A DNA stretch of 27,816 bases from a virus. The stretch spans positions 1 through 27,816 of IMG/VR virus record IMGVR_UViG_3300046522_000290; one strand, given 5' to 3'. Each line of letters starts with the position of its first letter. Within the stretch, counting starts at the first letter, position 1. The notes beneath the pieces are model-generated. The model saw only the letters and a program-made list of their open reading frames with translations, did not search any database and was not told the DNA's origin. A program made the position numbers and the translations under genes. Shown here piece by piece: positions 12,526 through 19,086 of this stretch.

Positions 12526-12903
12526 ATGGCCCGGCCACGAAAGCCAACGGCGGTTTTAGAGCTTACGGGCGCCTTCAAGAAAGACCCGCAGCGCGCCCGC
12601 AATGATGAGCCGGTACCGACCGGCAAGCCCGGCGATCCGCCGGACTATCTCGGCGAAGTAGCCGCCGGCATCTGGCACGAAATGGTTCTGCATGGCTTCT
12701 GGCTGACAGACGCCGACAAGTTCCTCTTAGAAATCGCGGCGCGACACATGGCCGATTTCCGGCGTGGCGTGTGCGACCCGAAAATCATAGCCCAACTTAT
12801 TACGGTCTTGAACAAGCTCGGCTTCGGCCCGGCTGAACGCAGCAAGATTAAAGCACCGGGCGCCAAAGAAGACGGCCCCAAGGACTTTGACGAATTCAAG
12901 TGA
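12526..12903 (+). CDS. terS: Terminase small subunit (P27 family)
   Basis: A 125-residue protein beginning MARPRKPTAVLELTGAFKKD, the conserved P27-type N-terminus, followed by a GDPPDYL segment and helices (ADKFLLEIAARHMADFRRG). Small terminases recognise phage DNA at the packaging site and feed it to the large subunit. The Lys-rich C-terminus contacts TerL or DNA. AGGT ten bases before the ATG is a weak ribosome site. The next gene's start lies inside its last codons. Confidence 0.85.
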   Translation: MARPRKPTAVLELTGAFKKDPQRARNDEPVPTGKPGDPPDYLGEVAAGIWHEMVLHGFWLTDADKFLLEIAARHMADFRRGVCDPKIIAQLITVLNKLGFGPAERSKIKAPGAKEDGPKDFDEFK

Positions 12904-14566
12904 TTACCCGCATGTCGAAGCTGGCTTGGCCTATTGTCGTGGCGTCGTGGCTGGCACTATTCCGGCCGGACTATACGTCCGCCAAGCGTGCCAACGACAC
13001 CTTGACGACCTTGAAAAAACCGATTGGGCATATCGCTTCGACTATGAACTAGCCGAACGCGTCTGCAAGTTCTGTTGCCTCTTCACTCACGTTAAGGGAC
13101 CGCTTGCAGGACAGTTCATTGCGCTTGAAGGATGGCAGTCATTCATCCTAACCGTTGTCTTCGGCTGGGTATGGAAGCACAACGGCAAGCGTCGTTTCCG
13201 CCGCACCTATATTGAAGTGCCGCGCGGCAACGGCAAGACCACGATTTCAGTTCTGCCAGCGCTCTACATGCTCGCGGCGGACAAGGAAGGCGGCGCGGAA
13301 GTCTATTCGGCCGCACGTATCCGCGACCAGGCGAAGGTTGCCTTTAGCATCGCGCAACAGATGGCGCGCAAGAACCCGGCCTTTACCGGGAAGCTCGGCG
13401 TTGACGTTCTGGCGCATCGCATTGTGCAACAGTCTTCGGCTTCGTTCTTCGAAGCCGTATCGAGCGATGCAGACTCGCTGGACGGCAAGAACGTTCACTT
13501 CGGACTCATTGACGAACTGCATGCGCATCGCACGCGCGACGTTTACGACGCTATCGAGACGGGCGCCGGCAAGCGCGATCAATCGTTGCTCTGGTCGATC
13601 ACAACGGCCGGTTCCGACAAGACCGGGATTGCCTATGAACAGCGCGCCTATGTGCTGAACATTCTTAAGGGCACGGTTGAAGATGACTCGTTCTTCGGCG
13701 TCGTCTACACGGTTGACGACGGCGACGACTGGACGGCCGAGTCCACATGGATCAAGGCAAACCCGAATTACGGCATTTCGGTTGAAGCGGAAAACCTCGC
13801 TGCAATGTGCCGCAAGGCCATGCAGTCGCCGGCTTCGCAAGCCGCATTTCTTACCAAGCATCTGAACGTCTGGATTCAAACCGACCAAGCGCTGTACGAC
13901 ACGCGCGCATGGGATAGGTGCGCCGATGCTACGCTTAACATTGACGATTTCGCGGGCAAACCCTGTAGGATCGCGGCGGACCTTGCGTCGAAGGTGGACG
14001 TTGCGGCTATCGTGCTGCTATTCGAAGACGAAGGGCGCCTTGTCGCGTTTCCGCGTTTCTATGTGCCAGAGGCGGCGATTGAAGAAACTCGCAACGCGTC
14101 TTACCACGGCTGGCAAATCAGCGGACACATACAAGTCACGGACGGCGACGTTATCGACTTCAACAGAATCGAAGACGATATCCGCGCCGATCTCGACAAG
14201 TACGACGTTATAGAACTCGCCTTCGACCCTTGGCAGTCAACGCAAATGTCTACGTCGCTCATGAGCGGCGGCGCCAACGTCGTTGAATATCGCCAAGTCG
14301 TCTCGACAATGTCCGAACCGACGAAAGAGCTAGACGCTCTTATGCGTACCGGTGGCATCGCTCACAACGCGAACCCGGTCCTTGCCTGGATGATTGGCAA
14401 TGTCGTTGGGCACTATGACGCGAAAGAAAACGTCTATCCCCGCAAAGAGCGACCGGAAAACAAAATTGACGGCGCGGTAGCGCTGATTATGGCGCTCGGC
14501 TTGAAGCTGAAAGGCGACCAGACCGGCGGCACTTACCTTTCCTCTGACGAACTGCTGATACTGTAA
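12887..14566 (+). CDS. terL: Terminase large subunit
   Basis: A 559-residue packaging motor. The ATPase part has Walker A VPRGNGKTT (K117) and Walker B FGLIDELHAH (D209, E210). The RuvC-like nuclease part has three spaced acidic residues: D365 (IAADLASK), D447 (AFDPWQS) and D528 (KIDGAVAL). It pumps and cuts concatemeric DNA at the portal. Start TTG at 12887, 17 bases inside terS, with AAGGAC upstream; no ATG precedes the conserved region. Length is normal for the HK97/P27-linked class. Confidence 0.92.
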   Translation: MTNSSDYPHVEAGLAYCRGVVAGTIPAGLYVRQACQRHLDDLEKTDWAYRFDYELAERVCKFCCLFTHVKGPLAGQFIALEGWQSFILTVVFGWVWKHNGKRRFRRTYIEVPRGNGKTTISVLPALYMLAADKEGGAEVYSAARIRDQAKVAFSIAQQMARKNPAFTGKLGVDVLAHRIVQQSSASFFEAVSSDADSLDGKNVHFGLIDELHAHRTRDVYDAIETGAGKRDQSLLWSITTAGSDKTGIAYEQRAYVLNILKGTVEDDSFFGVVYTVDDGDDWTAESTWIKANPNYGISVEAENLAAMCRKAMQSPASQAAFLTKHLNVWIQTDQALYDTRAWDRCADATLNIDDFAGKPCRIAADLASKVDVAAIVLLFEDEGRLVAFPRFYVPEAAIEETRNASYHGWQISGHIQVTDGDVIDFNRIEDDIRADLDKYDVIELAFDPWQSTQMSTSLMSGGANVVEYRQVVSTMSEPTKELDALMRTGGIAHNANPVLAWMIGNVVGHYDAKENVYPRKERPENKIDGAVALIMALGLKLKGDQTGGTYLSSDELLIL

Positions 14567-14579
14567 GGGACTCGAATAT

Positions 14580-14747
14580 ATGAAAATCGTTCGGTCCCTT
14601 GCACGGAACGCAATTGGCTTGGCCGGTATGGCGTCAATCACTTTTGGTGTTGAGCAATACTCACGTCCAGCCGGCTTTGTTGTTGCCGGCATGTTCCTAA
14701 TTCTCTGCGCACTGGTTGACGCATTCGAGACAAGGCCAGCCGCTTAA
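14580..14747 (+). CDS. Small two-helix membrane protein, 55 aa
   Basis: ATG at 14580, 13 bases after the TerL stop, with AAGGGA upstream. Two hydrophobic segments (AIGLAGMASITFGV and AGFVVAGMFLILCALV) flank a short polar turn (EQYSRP). Its TAA shares an A with the portal ATG (TAATG). Tiny membrane proteins between TerL and portal occur in several HK97-like phages, function unknown. Confidence 0.6.
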   Translation: MKIVRSLARNAIGLAGMASITFGVEQYSRPAGFVVAGMFLILCALVDAFETRPAA

Positions 14748-16693
14748 TGGGAATCTTTGAAAAGTTTTCATCCGCCATAGAGCGGAAAGCTACAGACGTG
14801 TCTGCGCTAACGTGGTCCGAACTATTCCCGGCGCGCTCGGCGAAGAGCGGCGTAACCGTCAACGTTGATACGGCGCTGCGAACAACAACCGTTCTGGCGT
14901 GCGCCCGCGTGATCTCGGAAGGCATCGCACAGCTACCCGTCAAGCTTTTTGATATCGACGGCCTGAACAAGACCGTTAACACGACGCATCCGCTTTATCA
15001 TCTTCTCGCGTGCGAACCCAACGACTTCATGTCGTCGTTTGAGTTTCGCGAAATGATGACGATGCACGCCGTTTTGCTCGGCAACGCATACGCCTACGTC
15101 AACCGCGTAGGCAACAAGATCATTGAGATTCTGCCGCTGGTTCCTAATCAGGTTTCGCTAGTTCGAAATGCTGACTGGACGATTGACTATTACGTCACGG
15201 ACCTAGCCGGCAAGACAATGGTTCTGGACGGCCGGGACGTGCTGCATTTACGCGGTCCCATGTGGAACGGCTATCAGGGCATGGACATGGTCCAGACCGC
15301 CCGCGAAGCCATCGGCCTGTCAATCGCGACCGAAGAGACACACGCCAGCTTGCACGCCAACGGCGCACAGCCCGGCGGCGTTCTCGCGGTGAAAGGCAAA
15401 CTGGACGACAAGGCGCGCGAACGCCTCAAGACGGCTTGGAATGCCTTTCAAGGCGGCGTCGCGAACCGGTTCAAGACCGCTGTTCTTGACGTAGACGCCG
15501 AGTGGAAGCCGCTTTCGATGACTGGCGTTGACAGCCAGCATTTGGAAACGCGCCGATTCCAGATCGAAGAGATTTGCCGGGCCATGCGGGTCTTTCCGCA
15601 ATTGGTCATGCACAGCGACAAGACTTCGACGTTCGCCAGCGCCGAGTCCTTCTTTATCGCGCACGTCACCCACTCGCTTATGCCGTGGGTTCAGCGATGG
15701 GAACAGACAATCAATCGAGTCATCTTGGACGATGACCCGAAACTGGTTATGCGCCTCAACGTGCAATCCATGTTGAAGACGGACGCCACGACACGCGGCA
15801 ACTTCTATCAACAGGCTCTCGGCGGCGCCCGCCCCGAAACGGCTTGGATGACCAAGAACGAAGTCCGTGAGCTTGAAGACCTGAACCCGATTGACGGCGG
15901 CGACGAGCTGCCGAAGCCGCCCCCGGTGCCGGACCCGACGACTCCCTTTGGGGCTTCGCCTGGTGCCGACGAACCGGACCCGGCGGACGACCATAACCCG
16001 GTGACCGCGAAGGCTCTTGAAGCTCTCGCGGTCTTCCGCAAGAACAACCCGAACCATGACGAGTCGGGCCGCTTCGCCAGCGGTCCCGGCGTCAAGGGCA
16101 GCGGCGTAGAGCAAGCGACCAGCGTAAAGCGATCTTGGATCGCCTCTAGCCCGCTGCGTAGCCTGACAGACGTTTACAAGGGCGCCGAAGGCAACAAGTT
16201 GCGGTTAGACGCGGCCGGCGCCGCTGTAGCCGCCGAGACAGGCGCCAAATTGAAGACGGCACCGATTAAGAAGATTGAACGGGCCATGGAGAAAGTCGCC
16301 GCCGGCCGCAAGCCGGGTGGCGTTAACGACATTGTCCGGCAAACCTTCCACGTCGCGTCACCGGCCATTGCCGACGCCGTCGTTAAGGGTCTGGCGAAGT
16401 ATTTCCCGATTGTGGATGAGGGTTACAAGACGACGAACGCCGGTTACTTCGACCGCGCCGTTAACGTCAAGTTCCCGAATGGCCAGATTGGCGAAGTCCT
16501 GATCATGCCGCCCGAAATGGCCAACGCGAAGAGCGAAGGCGGCGGGCATAAGCTGTATTCTGGAGAACGAAGTCTCCCGGCGGGTCATCCGCTACGGGAG
16601 ACTCTGTTAGCTGCATCACGCGAACTCTATGCGCGCGCCAATCAACGGCTTTCAGCGGACTGGAAAGACGCTTTAGGCAAGGACGGGAGTTGA
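14747..16693 (+). CDS. HK97-type portal fused to a RelA/SpoT-like domain
   Basis: A 648-residue protein. Residues 1-385 are a standard HK97 portal (RTTTVLACARVISEGIAQLP, LLGNAYAYVNR, LETRRFQIEEICRAMRVFP), forming the dodecameric DNA gate. A Pro/Asp-rich linker and NPNHDESGRFASG (about 434-446) lead to an extra domain at about 490-635. It reads NDIVRQTFHV (D528), then NAGYFDRAVNVKFPNGQIGE (Y567, E583), then PPEM and HKLYSGER. This order resembles RelA/SpoT nucleotidyltransferases (DIAGxR, GYRSxH, ExQIRT, with the two metal-binding acids kept). Typical portals end near 400-450 residues. The final 52 bases overlap a minus-strand gene. Activity is not proven; the usual R/H of GYRxxH differ. Confidence 0.8.
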   Translation: MGIFEKFSSAIERKATDVSALTWSELFPARSAKSGVTVNVDTALRTTTVLACARVISEGIAQLPVKLFDIDGLNKTVNTTHPLYHLLACEPNDFMSSFEFREMMTMHAVLLGNAYAYVNRVGNKIIEILPLVPNQVSLVRNADWTIDYYVTDLAGKTMVLDGRDVLHLRGPMWNGYQGMDMVQTAREAIGLSIATEETHASLHANGAQPGGVLAVKGKLDDKARERLKTAWNAFQGGVANRFKTAVLDVDAEWKPLSMTGVDSQHLETRRFQIEEICRAMRVFPQLVMHSDKTSTFASAESFFIAHVTHSLMPWVQRWEQTINRVILDDDPKLVMRLNVQSMLKTDATTRGNFYQQALGGARPETAWMTKNEVRELEDLNPIDGGDELPKPPPVPDPTTPFGASPGADEPDPADDHNPVTAKALEALAVFRKNNPNHDESGRFASGPGVKGSGVEQATSVKRSWIASSPLRSLTDVYKGAEGNKLRLDAAGAAVAAETGAKLKTAPIKKIERAMEKVAAGRKPGGVNDIVRQTFHVASPAIADAVVKGLAKYFPIVDEGYKTTNAGYFDRAVNVKFPNGQIGEVLIMPPEMANAKSEGGGHKLYSGERSLPAGHPLRETLLAASRELYARANQRLSADWKDALGKDGS

Positions 16694-16854
16694 GGGAACA
16701 TTCCTTCAAACTTTTCCTTGCTCAACAGCCGCGCGTTGTGGTTCGCCTCGGCGCTGTCTAACCCGGTCCAAACCCCGTCAACGCACCAGATCGCTTCGTG
16801 ATCGGTCATTCGAACGGCGTTTCCGTCCAGCGTCGCATACTTTGGCTCTGCCAT
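16642..16854 (-). CDS. Hypothetical protein, 70 aa, convergent with portal gene
   Basis: ATG at 16854 has the strongest ribosome site in the window, AAAGGAGGT, which is partly held in a hairpin. The protein begins MAEPKYATLDGNAVRMTDHE, includes WCVDGVWTGLDSAEANHNA, and has a Ser/Pro-rich tail. Its last 52 coding bases overlap the 3' end of the portal fusion on the other strand. The arrangement could suit an antidote to the fused domain, but there is no sequence proof. Unknown family. Confidence 0.55.
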   Translation of the reverse strand: MAEPKYATLDGNAVRMTDHEAIWCVDGVWTGLDSAEANHNARLLSKEKFEGMFPQLPSLPKASFQSAESR

Positions 16855-16856
16855 GT

Positions 16857-16877
16857 GTTTACCTCCTTTGGGTAAAC
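16857..16877 (-). promoter_or_regulatory. Hairpin over the ribosome site
   Basis: GTTTACC (16857-16863) and GGTAAAC (16871-16877) are perfect inverted repeats with a 7-base loop. On the minus strand the AAGGAGG lies in the loop and downstream arm, so folding would restrict translation of the 70-residue gene. It could be an RNA switch or a protein-binding site. Confidence 0.5.
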
Positions 16878-16881
16878 CGTC

Positions 16882-17106
16882 TTAGAGCAAATCGTCTGGC
16901 TCTATGTCAAACTTAATGATCGCACGCAAAAGGCGAATAACGGGTTCGGGACACTCACGAGTCCCGGCCCGGTAATGACGAGCGGTCCGCTTGGCGATGC
17001 CAAGATACTCGCTCGCATGCTCTTCTGTCTCAATCCCTGCCCTATCCGCCAGTGTGGCAAACAGGACGGCCGACTCGGTCTGTTTCAGTTTGCGCGGTGG
17101 CGCCAT
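16882..17106 (-). CDS. Helix-turn-helix-like small regulator, 74 aa
   Basis: ATG at 17106 follows GAAGGAA. The sequence TESAVLFATLADRAGIETEE then ASEYLGIAKRTARHYRAGTR fits a Cro/phage-type helix-turn-helix, with the recognition helix at about residues 36-48. A C-terminal helix (EPVIRLLRAIIKFDIEP) could dimerise. It precedes the 70-residue gene by 27 bases, so both are likely co-transcribed. The dyad at 17140-17156 in its leader is a natural autoregulatory site. Confidence 0.6.
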   Translation of the reverse strand: MAPPRKLKQTESAVLFATLADRAGIETEEHASEYLGIAKRTARHYRAGTRECPEPVIRLLRAIIKFDIEPDDLL

Positions 17107-17139
17107 ACGGCTGATTCCTTCTGGAACCCACTCTAAACG

Positions 17140-17156
17140 AACGAAAGTGCTTCGTT
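17140..17156 (-). promoter_or_regulatory. Operator-like dyad upstream of the HTH gene
   Basis: AACGAA (17140-17145), a 5-base spacer AGTGC, and TTCGTT (17151-17156) form a perfect inverted repeat. Promoter-like TTAACG and TTTAGA boxes on the minus strand flank it at roughly 15-16 bases. Suits binding by the HTH protein encoded next to it. Confidence 0.45.
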
Positions 17157-17177
17157 AAGCGCCGCGTTGCGGCGCTT
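17157..17177. terminator. Strong hairpin after the 129-residue gene, possible terminator
   Basis: AAGCGCCGC (17157-17165), loop GTT, GCGGCGCTT (17169-17177): a perfect 9-bp stem 14 bases past the minus-strand stop at 17191. No T-run follows on either strand, so termination may be weak or the hairpin may stabilise the 3' end. Confidence 0.45.
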
Positions 17178-17190
17178 CGGCGAAGAACTC

Positions 17191-17580
17191 TTAATCAATT
17201 GCCCACTTTGCTTCGTTGTAACCGGGCAACGCGGGGATGCAGTCTTCAATGATGGCCTGCAAGATCGCCTTGGCTTCCGAATCTGCCCATTCCGGGGTTT
17301 CGCAAGACTGGTAATCGAGACATTGCGCCAGCTTGATCATGCCAATGGCATTCGGGACCGTTAGGAAGAACCGGTAAGCCATCGGCGACGCGTTGCTACC
17401 TTCCTTGTACCGATAGTTCACGCTCTTGACGTTCTCTTGATAGAGCTTTTGGGCGATCTCGTTGGCGTTATCCGCGTTGATGACTTCCCGGCCCTTGTTC
17501 CAGTAGTACGAAACCCGCTTGAGAACGCAGTAAGACACCAGCGCCGAAATGTGCTTGTCGGAAACGACGAATGCGGACAT
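17191..17580 (-). CDS. Conserved hypothetical protein, 129 aa
   Basis: ATG at 17580 follows AGAGAGG; the longer frame upstream lacks support. Begins MSAFVVSDKHISALVSYCV, includes VKSVNYRYKEG, and ends with LQAIIEDCIPALPGYNEAKW. I recognise this overall pattern (SVNYRY, CLDYQSCET, ALPGY) from unnamed proteins in plasmids, phages and diverse bacteria; no function is known to me. It is the largest gene of the island. Probably cytoplasmic. Confidence 0.6.
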   Translation of the reverse strand: MSAFVVSDKHISALVSYCVLKRVSYYWNKGREVINADNANEIAQKLYQENVKSVNYRYKEGSNASPMAYRFFLTVPNAIGMIKLAQCLDYQSCETPEWADSEAKAILQAIIEDCIPALPGYNEAKWAID

Positions 17581-17597
17581 TTGAAAACCTCTCTTGT

Positions 17598-17762
17598 TTA
17601 GTTCTTGATCTCGAAACAAACACCCTTGCCCGTCGAAACGAACAATTCGAACTTAGGCGACGTGATGAGAATGTAAGCGCCGTTGACCCGGCCCCGACCG
17701 ACCTTGGCTTCCAAGCCGTTTTCGATCTCCCGAACCAGCGCCTTAACAACTGACTTCAACAT
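17598..17762 (-). CDS. Small hypothetical protein, 54 aa
   Basis: ATG at 17762 with GGGAG upstream. A helix (LKSVVKALVREIENGLEAKV) leads into a beta hairpin (GAYILITSPKFELFVSTGKG). It is the first gene downstream of the promoter at 17789-17817 and probably forms one transcript with the 129-residue gene. No family recognised. Confidence 0.5.
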   Translation of the reverse strand: MLKSVVKALVREIENGLEAKVGRGRVNGAYILITSPKFELFVSTGKGVCFEIKN

Positions 17763-17788
17763 TTCCCGTCTCCCTGTCTGCAAAACAA

Positions 17789-17817
17789 CAATAGGCCCAT
17801 TGGGCCTATTGAGTCAA
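17789..17817 (-). promoter_or_regulatory. Promoter with palindromic operator (copy 1)
   Basis: On the minus strand, TTGACT (17817-17812) and CTATTG (17794-17789) are 17 bases apart. Filling and overlapping the spacer is a 21-base perfect palindrome around one central base: AATAGGCCCA, T, TGGGCCTATT (17790-17810). A repressor here would block polymerase directly. The same layout recurs at 18327-18355. Confidence 0.7.
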
Positions 17818-17837
17818 CGCCGTTCTGTTATTTTTTC

Positions 17838-18035
17838 TTAGGTCTTGTTGATTATTTCGACTTCACCGGAACGCGCGACATAGACAGCGAAGTTTCTGGA
17901 AACAATCTTGCCATTAAGCCGGAAAAACTGGTCTCTCTTCGTAATTGTGACCTTCCAAGGCTCCTGTACCGGGAACGTCTTACGGATCATCGGAACGCCG
18001 TTCCGAATGAGCGCCTGAACAACCTCGCCCATCAT
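17838..18035 (-). CDS. Small basic hypothetical protein, 65 aa
   Basis: ATGATG at 18035 overlaps the upstream TGA. Beta-rich and basic (KVTITKRDQFFRLNGKIVSR, then FAVYVARSGEVEIINKT). Translationally coupled to the 84-residue gene. No family recognised. Confidence 0.5.
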   Translation of the reverse strand: MMGEVVQALIRNGVPMIRKTFPVQEPWKVTITKRDQFFRLNGKIVSRNFAVYVARSGEVEIINKT

Positions 18036-18286
18036 GCCGCAAGTGCCAGTTCGGCCGGTAGCTGGACCGACGTTTGGAAGATGTAGCCTTCATAGAAGTC
18101 GAAATAGAGCTTGAAGGCGTCGCCGGCCAACATGGCAAGCCACTTCACCTTAACCGGTGAATCTCCCGGCTCTCCCTGCATGTAATCGATTGAAGAGTCT
18201 GCAATCGCGACATTGAAAACCTGTTCCGCGACCTCTTCGACGGCGATTTGCTGTGAAACGGACAGTTCTTCGAACTTAACAGCCAT
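18032..18286 (-). CDS. Small acidic hypothetical protein, 84 aa
   Basis: ATG at 18286 follows AGGAGAG. An acidic helical N-terminus (FEELSVSQQIAVEEVAEQVF) is followed by VKVKWLAMLAGDAFKLYFDF and an Ala-rich end. It is the first gene after the operator/promoter at 18327-18355. The small acidic fold is compatible with inhibitor-type proteins, but this is only a general impression. Confidence 0.5.
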   Translation of the reverse strand: MAVKFEELSVSQQIAVEEVAEQVFNVAIADSSIDYMQGEPGDSPVKVKWLAMLAGDAFKLYFDFYEGYIFQTSVQLPAELALAA

Positions 18287-18326
18287 TTTGGCTCTCCTAA
18301 GCGGCCGGGAATCGGCCCCGACTCAT

Positions 18327-18355
18327 TTATAGGCCCATTGGTCCTATCGAGTCCA
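18327..18355 (-). promoter_or_regulatory. Promoter with palindromic operator (copy 2)
   Basis: On the minus strand, TGGACT (18355-18350) and CTATAA (18332-18327) are 17 bases apart. The spacer holds ATAGGCCCATTGGTCCTAT (18329-18347), differing from copy 1 at one base in 19. GAGTC follows in both copies. The shared design points to joint control of both halves of the island. Confidence 0.7.
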
Positions 18356-18390
18356 TCCCTCCTAAAACCATTTTTGAAGTGGAAGCGCCT

Positions 18391-19086
18391 ATGAACCGGC
18401 TTGGTTGCGGGTTCCTTGAAGTCAAATTCAATCCGGGTGCCGATGACGGCACCTTCGCCGGCTACGGCTCAATTTTCGGCAATGTCGATTCATATGGTGA
18501 CGTAGTCGCGCCCGGTGCTTTCAAAAGCACACTTCAAGAGGCGAAGAGCGGTACCGGTGCTTGGCCTGCAATGCTTTTGCAGCACGGCGGCGACTCCGTA
18601 GAGGACAAGATGCCAATTGGCATCTGGACCGCCATGGACGAAGACGACAACGGCCTCCGCATGGAGGGCAAGTTGGCGCTCGATACCCGACGCGGCGCCG
18701 AAGCTTACGCACTTCTCAAGATGACACCGCGTCCAGCGCTGAACGGCCTGTCTATCGGCTATCGCGCGCGCAAGTTCGTCATGGGCGCGAAGACAGACAA
18801 GGCGCGGCGCACCCTTACCGGTGTCGATCTCCATGAAGTGTCCCTTGTGACCTTCCCGGCCAACACGCTTGCGACTGTTACTTCGGTCAAGGCGTCCGAC
18901 GAAATCAAAACCATTCGAGACTTTGAGAACTTCCTACGGGACGTAGGCGGTTTTTCGAATAGCGCCGCCAAAGCGATTGCTTCGGGCGGATTCAAATCGC
19001 ACGCGGACCTTCGGGACGAAGACGACGGCGAAAAACGTTTGGCGGACCTTCTTGAAAAGGCCGCTGCAATCTTCAATCCCAAATAA
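18391..19086 (+). CDS. HK97-type prohead protease
   Basis: A 231-residue serine protease (U35/S78 type). Conserved pieces: FAGYGSIFGNVDSYGDVVAPGAF (in parts, about 22-44), the catalytic His in MLLQHG (H65), and the catalytic Ser in LNGLSIGY (S121), with DLHEVSLVTFPANTLA following. It trims the capsid scaffold domain during maturation. The likely start is ATG 18391 after GGAAG; a GTG at 18379 is possible. C-terminal 60 residues are typical disordered/helical extension. Confidence 0.9.
   Translation: MNRLGCGFLEVKFNPGADDGTFAGYGSIFGNVDSYGDVVAPGAFKSTLQEAKSGTGAWPAMLLQHGGDSVEDKMPIGIWTAMDEDDNGLRMEGKLALDTRRGAEAYALLKMTPRPALNGLSIGYRARKFVMGAKTDKARRTLTGVDLHEVSLVTFPANTLATVTSVKASDEIKTIRDFENFLRDVGGFSNSAAKAIASGGFKSHADLRDEDDGEKRLADLLEKAAAIFNPK

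Follow-up and report, generated by a model that had tools for sequence, protein, structure and literature searches.

The portal gene of a virus represented by a 27.8-kb fragment (27,816 nucleotides, analyzed over its full length and called the window below) encodes an HK97-type portal that continues into a RelA/SpoT-type (RSH) domain of the SYNTH superfamily with a conserved active site, and a small gene on the opposite strand, reading into the 3' end of the portal gene, belongs to a family strictly associated with this domain. The portal–RSH fusion and the SYNTH fold are near certain. That the antisense gene is real and dedicated to the RSH domain is held with high confidence. Taken as a whole, the pair is read as a virion-associated pyrophosphokinase effector and its antisense-encoded immunity protein, an interpretation that we favor with moderate confidence. 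We give roughly even chances to the proposal that an immunity gene stands antisense to, and is often nested in, the gene of a virion-carried alarmone-type effector, the acceptor specificity of which may be unlike that of the enzymes making (p)ppGpp or (p)ppApp.

The ORF of the fusion (14747..16693, plus strand, 648 aa, ATG start) is present in the window. A reading made previously from the sequence only had described it as an HK97 portal extended to 648 residues, and the Pfam profile search bore this out: residues 48–378 (14888..15880, plus strand) matched PF04860 (E 2.1e-87; PHROG 12) over positions 2–321 of the 321 in the profile, as in a full-length, intact portal. The gene occupies the place typical of HK97-type portals, with the terminase large subunit gene (12887–14566) before it and the prohead protease gene (18379–19086), then the capsid genes, after it. 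The closest portals (39–46% identity) are those of Azospirillum phage Cd, Rhizobium phage RHph_X2_25 and a Bradyrhizobium phage, and because of this portal similarity the host of the phage is probably alphaproteobacterial. In these three phages, the portal is approximately 415–450 aa long and the protease gene follows directly. The sequence-only reading had named, as evidence against itself, homologous portals with the same tail as a purely structural crown. Such portals were not found, and the reading is not refuted on this point: none of the 83 other portals fetched by portal similarity (the three phages and 80 IMG/VR loci) has the tail domain.

Several further features of the window were recorded. 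Approximately 1.7 kb of small minus-strand ORFs (16693–18379) lie between the portal and the protease genes, where the related phages have no gap. A terminator-like hairpin, recognized by a consensus match only, is placed at the end of the portal ORF (16690..16709, plus strand). The operator-like palindrome ATAGGCCCATTGGGCCTAT occurs in two copies (17791–17809 and 18329–18347, with 0 and 1 mismatch, respectively; none is expected by chance), both standing upstream of small minus-strand ORFs. A ProQ/FinO-family gene (1735–2148; PF04352, E 1e-19) is located just ahead of the phage primase gene. No integrase or repressor was recognized among the window proteins scanned.

The RelA/SpoT-like domain had been placed from position 16210 onward; the domain is indeed present, but it begins earlier, at about 16139, and comprises residues ~465–638 (16139..16660, plus strand) according to the alignment, the model and the profile. 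Tail residues 444–648 (205 aa) alone matched Tas1 (6OX6) in the PDB in a phmmer search (E 2e-4), and a shorter tail query of 160 aa found the same protein at E 0.016. With the Pfam RelA_SpoT model (PF04607), the window sequence stayed below the cut-off, and a relative, L149, scored 33.2 bits against the cut-off of 27. Neither tblastn of the tail in the phage and plasmid collections nor exact peptide patterns derived from the single window sequence gave any relatives; these were collected with a DNA pattern for ExxxxxPEMxxAK, derived from the Tas1–window alignment. The family counts 93 viral domains including duplicates, with 69 non-redundant ones in the final set.

In the PDB, a profile of 47 family sequences found Tas1 (E 1.3e-33) and, more weakly, Rel enzymes (about 1e-6). 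The AlphaFold2 model of the domain, built with 47 relatives, reached a pLDDT of 92.9 and a pTM of 0.86. In VIA-align, its best match was Tas1/Apk1 (Z 16.4, rmsd 3.1, 161 residues), with RelQ, RelP and an exported alarmone synthetase at Z ~15 and CapRel at Z 13.0. Foldseek, suggested earlier as a check against RelA/SpoT and toxin folds, also returned Tas1 as the best match of the model (E 1.4e-8), and ranked it first even with a poor single-sequence AlphaFold model (pLDDT 56). Altogether, these results confirm the RelA/SpoT-type fold that had been proposed.

The residues pointed out in the sequence-only reading, i.e., D528 in NDIVRQT, GY at 566–567, E583 and the HKLYSGER block from H601, were all found in their places. 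Among 50 dereplicated sequences, K508, D528, Y567 and E583 were 100% conserved, K516 and R531 98% and D569 92%; because the search pattern contained E583 and the PEM/AK residues, their conservation is not independent evidence, whereas that of the other residues is. The Mg-binding Asp (D528), the catalytic Glu (E583) and the acceptor-stacking Tyr (Y567) of SYNTH enzymes are all present. R531 and E583 of the window align with R330 and E382 of Apk1 (numbering matched via a constant offset of 21), which are active-site residues (PMC12691689).

It had also been claimed that the catalytic acids are kept and the acceptor motif is changed. Indeed, D528 and E583 are invariant, and the acceptor (Syn3) motif of the window domain reads GYFDRAVN, with no SxH as in the GYRSxH guanosine-recognition motif of the (p)ppGpp synthetases proper. 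Nor does it contain GxN, the Syn3 signature of adenosine 3'-pyrophosphokinases (PMC12226406), as Asp 569 and Ala 571 stand where Apk has Gly and Asn. Residue 585 is Leu in the window and in L160 and Gln in 88% of the relatives. It probably corresponds to Q147 of FaRel2, which contacts the donor adenine (PMC11782079), and the activity of the domain could be reduced because Leu replaces the usual Gln. Judged from the sequence and the model, the domain is likely an active pyrophosphokinase.

Since related portals lack the domain and the same domain rides on varied carriers, we consider it mobile cargo. A second HK97-type portal with an RSH domain (L160, 904 aa) has an additional stretch between the two parts and two NHDxxGRFA-type linkers. 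A Mu-type portal (PF06074) is fused to a Tas1/Apk-like RSH domain in L114 (6110–8905), with no antisense partner seen behind that domain. The other carriers include a protein resembling minor head proteins (L119), the product of a gene that directly follows a lambda-type portal gene (L120), large polyvalent proteins (e.g., L149, with LPD22), and two proteins in which the RSH domain follows the anti-CBASS domain Acb1 (PF23474; L257 5729–7648 and L258 2405–7657). In the tree, the window domain is sister to the Acb1 fusions and then to L160, with strong support; the MuF label of L120 and L263 in this tree is provisional, with no domain match behind it.

The portal and the cargo meet at the junction NPNHDESGRFASG (residues 434–446; 16046..16084, plus strand), a motif preceding varied cargo in phage head proteins. 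The pattern [FY]NPNHDxxGRFA marks such a junction in 51 viral loci and was noted in the window, L160 and L186–L235. On the head-protein side, it is joined to PF04860 and Mu-type portals, MuF and the S78 prohead protease, and on the cargo side to ADP-ribosyltransferases, a papain-like protease, LPD3, Hint, NUDIX and RSH domains. The motif may be a cleavage or packaging signal. An exchangeable C-terminal cargo with a small partner gene adjacent to it, as in head-carried polymorphic toxins, is found here. No convincing candidates for antisense partners of the other cargo domains were found behind the linker-bearing proteins.

The partner of the RSH domain in the window is a convergent 70-aa ORF, a predicted immunity protein (16642..16854, minus strand), which shares 52 nt with the 3' end of the portal ORF. 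A strong ribosome-binding site, AAAGGAGGT (16861..16869, minus strand, read from the sequence), is located 6 nt ahead of its ATG. Directly upstream of it lies a 74-aa regulator-like ORF (16882..17106, minus strand), with a weak match to a PHROG transcriptional regulator (E 0.005); L119 has an ORF at the equivalent position (E 0.04). Homologues of the 70-aa ORF occupy the same convergent place in the five closest relatives (L160, L120, L172, L094 and L119), among which L120, L172 and L094 are near-identical to one another.

A first partner profile was built from four of these five homologues, which have at most marginal overlap with the sense frame. In the fetched loci, each of its 23 listed matches was on the opposite strand and immediately behind an RSH domain, some of them inside large sense ORFs of polyvalent proteins. 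The iterated profile gave 70 matches at E < 0.01, all 70 placed in the same way and none elsewhere. A later set of 18 loci, fetched with only the RSH domain as query, contained the partner in every case; approximately 10 of these loci were new and distinct. In the final tally, the partner was detectable right behind 51 of the 69 non-redundant RSH domains, always antisense and often nested. One nested pair stands in a prophage-like region of Pleomorphomonas koreensis DSM 23070 (L185). Roughly nine of the remaining 18 domains have a similar antisense ORF missed by the profile; behind the Tas1/Apk-like domains of L089, L114 and L164, no antisense ORF of the partner type was seen. As the partner stays with the RSH domain on every kind of carrier, we regard it as belonging to the enzyme rather than the portal.

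The partner family had no match in Pfam or PHROGs, and its profile had no credible match in the PDB. A Tis1-like identity was considered and dropped, as Tis1 was not among the PDB matches of the partner profile; a distant kinship is possible. Partner-like ORFs with no recognizable RSH domain alongside were noticed in bacterial genomes from the order of Pleomorphomonas koreensis. One of them (L245, 528–812, plus strand) stands beside a gene read as FolB-like and the other (L246, 1069–1686, plus strand) in a phage-like stretch; both are possible orphan immunity genes. A third such candidate, L247, was rejected on account of a weak RSH-like match 0.7 kb away.

Nesting of one frame in another called for evidence that the antisense frame is coding. 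A Shine-Dalgarno match of at least 5 nt precedes the start in 71% of 34 non-redundant nested genes, a value somewhat inflated since the starts were picked for the best match, in comparison to 3% of 461 control antisense ATGs in the same genes. All 41 nested genes tested lie in one phase, with antisense codon positions 1, 2 and 3 on sense positions 2, 1 and 3. In this shared phase the wobble positions coincide and codon-position counts alone failed to separate the frames, so changes synonymous in both frames were scored. In the nested region, 1473 of 1487 sense-silent wobble changes (99.1%) were also antisense-silent, with 85.5% expected, whereas in the same-phase control, the neighboring RSH domain, the corresponding values were 84.1% and 82.2%; the sequence pairs in this test are not independent and the contrast is large. 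Hence, the antisense protein is under purifying selection. The profile matches of L167, L134 and L238 were aligned in the wrong ORF stretch; L167 and L134 were re-read from their own starts and L238 was excluded from the selection tests.

The analogy with MuF toxins drawn in the sequence-only reading is supported by published work (PMC12226406, PMC5512222). Apk2 is a MuF-type phage head toxin with a (p)ppApp synthetase domain, the biochemistry of which has been described (PMC12226406). As in the window, its SYNTH-type enzyme is C-terminal on a phage head protein encoded in a head-gene module, with a small partner gene alongside. The two systems differ in the carrier (an N-terminal MuF domain in Apk2 versus the PF04860 portal), in Syn3 (GxN versus GYFDRAVN) and in the partners, which are a downstream same-strand iapK and aph1 pair in Apk2 and an antisense, convergent gene in the window. 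No downstream genes of the iapK/aph1 type were found, the downstream ORFs of the window being on the opposite strand. Tas1/Apk1 (6OX6), the nearest solved fold and sequence, similarly has a small cognate partner (Tis1), but it is delivered via PAAR/T6SS, whereas the window domain rides on a portal. The toxSAS modules (FaRel2, CapRel; PMC11782079) share the SYNTH fold and a neutralizing partner or domain; in contrast, the window enzyme is part of a structural phage protein with its partner on the opposite strand.

Phage head or injected proteins that bear mobile effector domains, as in the window, have been described, with RelA/SpoT domains on MuF and polyvalent proteins, together with PBECR, 2H and InPase domains fused to portals, so that portal carriage is precedented for other domains (PMC5512222). 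However, the same work mentions neither RelA/SpoT on a portal nor an antisense partner. RelA/SpoT on MuF also appears in PMC3482391 and PMC5576092, and a survey of exported alarmone synthetases names WXG/LXG, XopAD, MuF, DUF4157 and Rhs/PAAR as carriers but not the portal (PMC12691689). In the open-licence papers searched, no publication was found for the partner family, the portal–RelA/SpoT fusion or an antisense immunity gene.

In the mechanism that we propose, the portal subunit would bear a C-terminal pyrophosphokinase effector of the SYNTH superfamily, with the (p)ppApp toxin Tas1/Apk1 as its nearest relative. With ATP as the probable donor, the enzyme would pyrophosphorylate a nucleotide or a nucleotide-ended acceptor at its 3' hydroxyl, and given the GYFDRAVN motif this acceptor may be unlike those of known enzymes. 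Being fused to the portal, the enzyme would be built into the head with it and would act in the next host after release. Because a portal normally remains in the capsid, release would call for a further step, possibly cleavage at the NPNHDxxGRFA junction. Portals are not known to be injected, and the lack of a known delivery step speaks for the alternative that the enzyme works in the producing cell, where, made late with the portal, it would reshape nucleotide pools or block defence while the antisense protein limits or times it. The Acb1 fusions (L257, L258), in which the domain keeps counter-defence company, point in the same direction. However, such action would not need an enzyme tied to a structural protein, and head or polyvalent proteins like its diverse carriers are predicted to be packaged (PMC5512222); we regard action in the producing cell as rather unlikely.

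According to the effector and immunity interpretation, the 70-aa protein would be a dedicated immunity protein shielding the cell in which the virions are assembled. In a temperate phage, it may also protect the lysogen: lying antisense and having a ribosome-binding site of its own, the gene could be expressed while the late operon is off. The 74-aa regulator-like ORF upstream is in weak agreement with such expression. Characterized members of this enzyme class are blocked by immunity proteins or antitoxin domains, such as Tis1 and IapK (PMC11782079, PMC12226406). This precedent, the association with the domain and the partner-like ORFs with no adjacent RSH domain, as expected of immunity genes, argue for an effector and immunity pair; the PDB search detected no relation of the partner to Tis1, and neutralization is proposed from the association.

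A small protein, always adjacent to the domain and co-inherited with it on any carrier, could also be a folding, portal-assembly or regulation partner, e.g., a chaperone keeping the domain shut until packaging. Nevertheless, it tracks the RSH domain and not the portal, a chaperone role leaves the L245 and L246 ORFs unexplained, and a chaperone silencing the enzyme would overlap with the immunity role; such a function seems improbable to us. Very improbable, in our view, is that the SYNTH fold has decayed, lost its catalytic activity and now serves the portal as a structural or nucleotide-sensing extension. Leu 585 in the window and L160 and an acceptor motif unlike those of characterized enzymes could speak for this. 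Against it stand the catalytic residues (K, D, R, Y and E), which the window retains and which hardly vary or are invariant across the family, the partner gene retained with a strong ribosome-binding site, and the 83 related portals that manage without the tail.

MuF toxins of this class (Apk2) are known, and the fusion is a foreseeable variant of them; portal carriage and the antisense partner appear to be new, and the antisense-nested partner, which the sequence-only reading had missed, is the surprise. The portal forms a ring, with many copies of the protein per virion. With these findings, the portal joins the minor protein MuF as a carrier of phage head toxins, and a stringent-response-type enzyme is coupled to the DNA gate. 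Antisense-nested ORFs are discarded by ordinary annotation, and in the partner family coding genes clearly lie reversed inside other coding genes and are kept across diverse phages. If the effector and immunity interpretation is true, the toxin and its immunity would be inherited as one locus and expressed from opposite strands, the effector with the late operon and the immunity gene in lysogeny or early. The pair bears on two questions, the role of phage-head toxins and whom their immunity genes protect.
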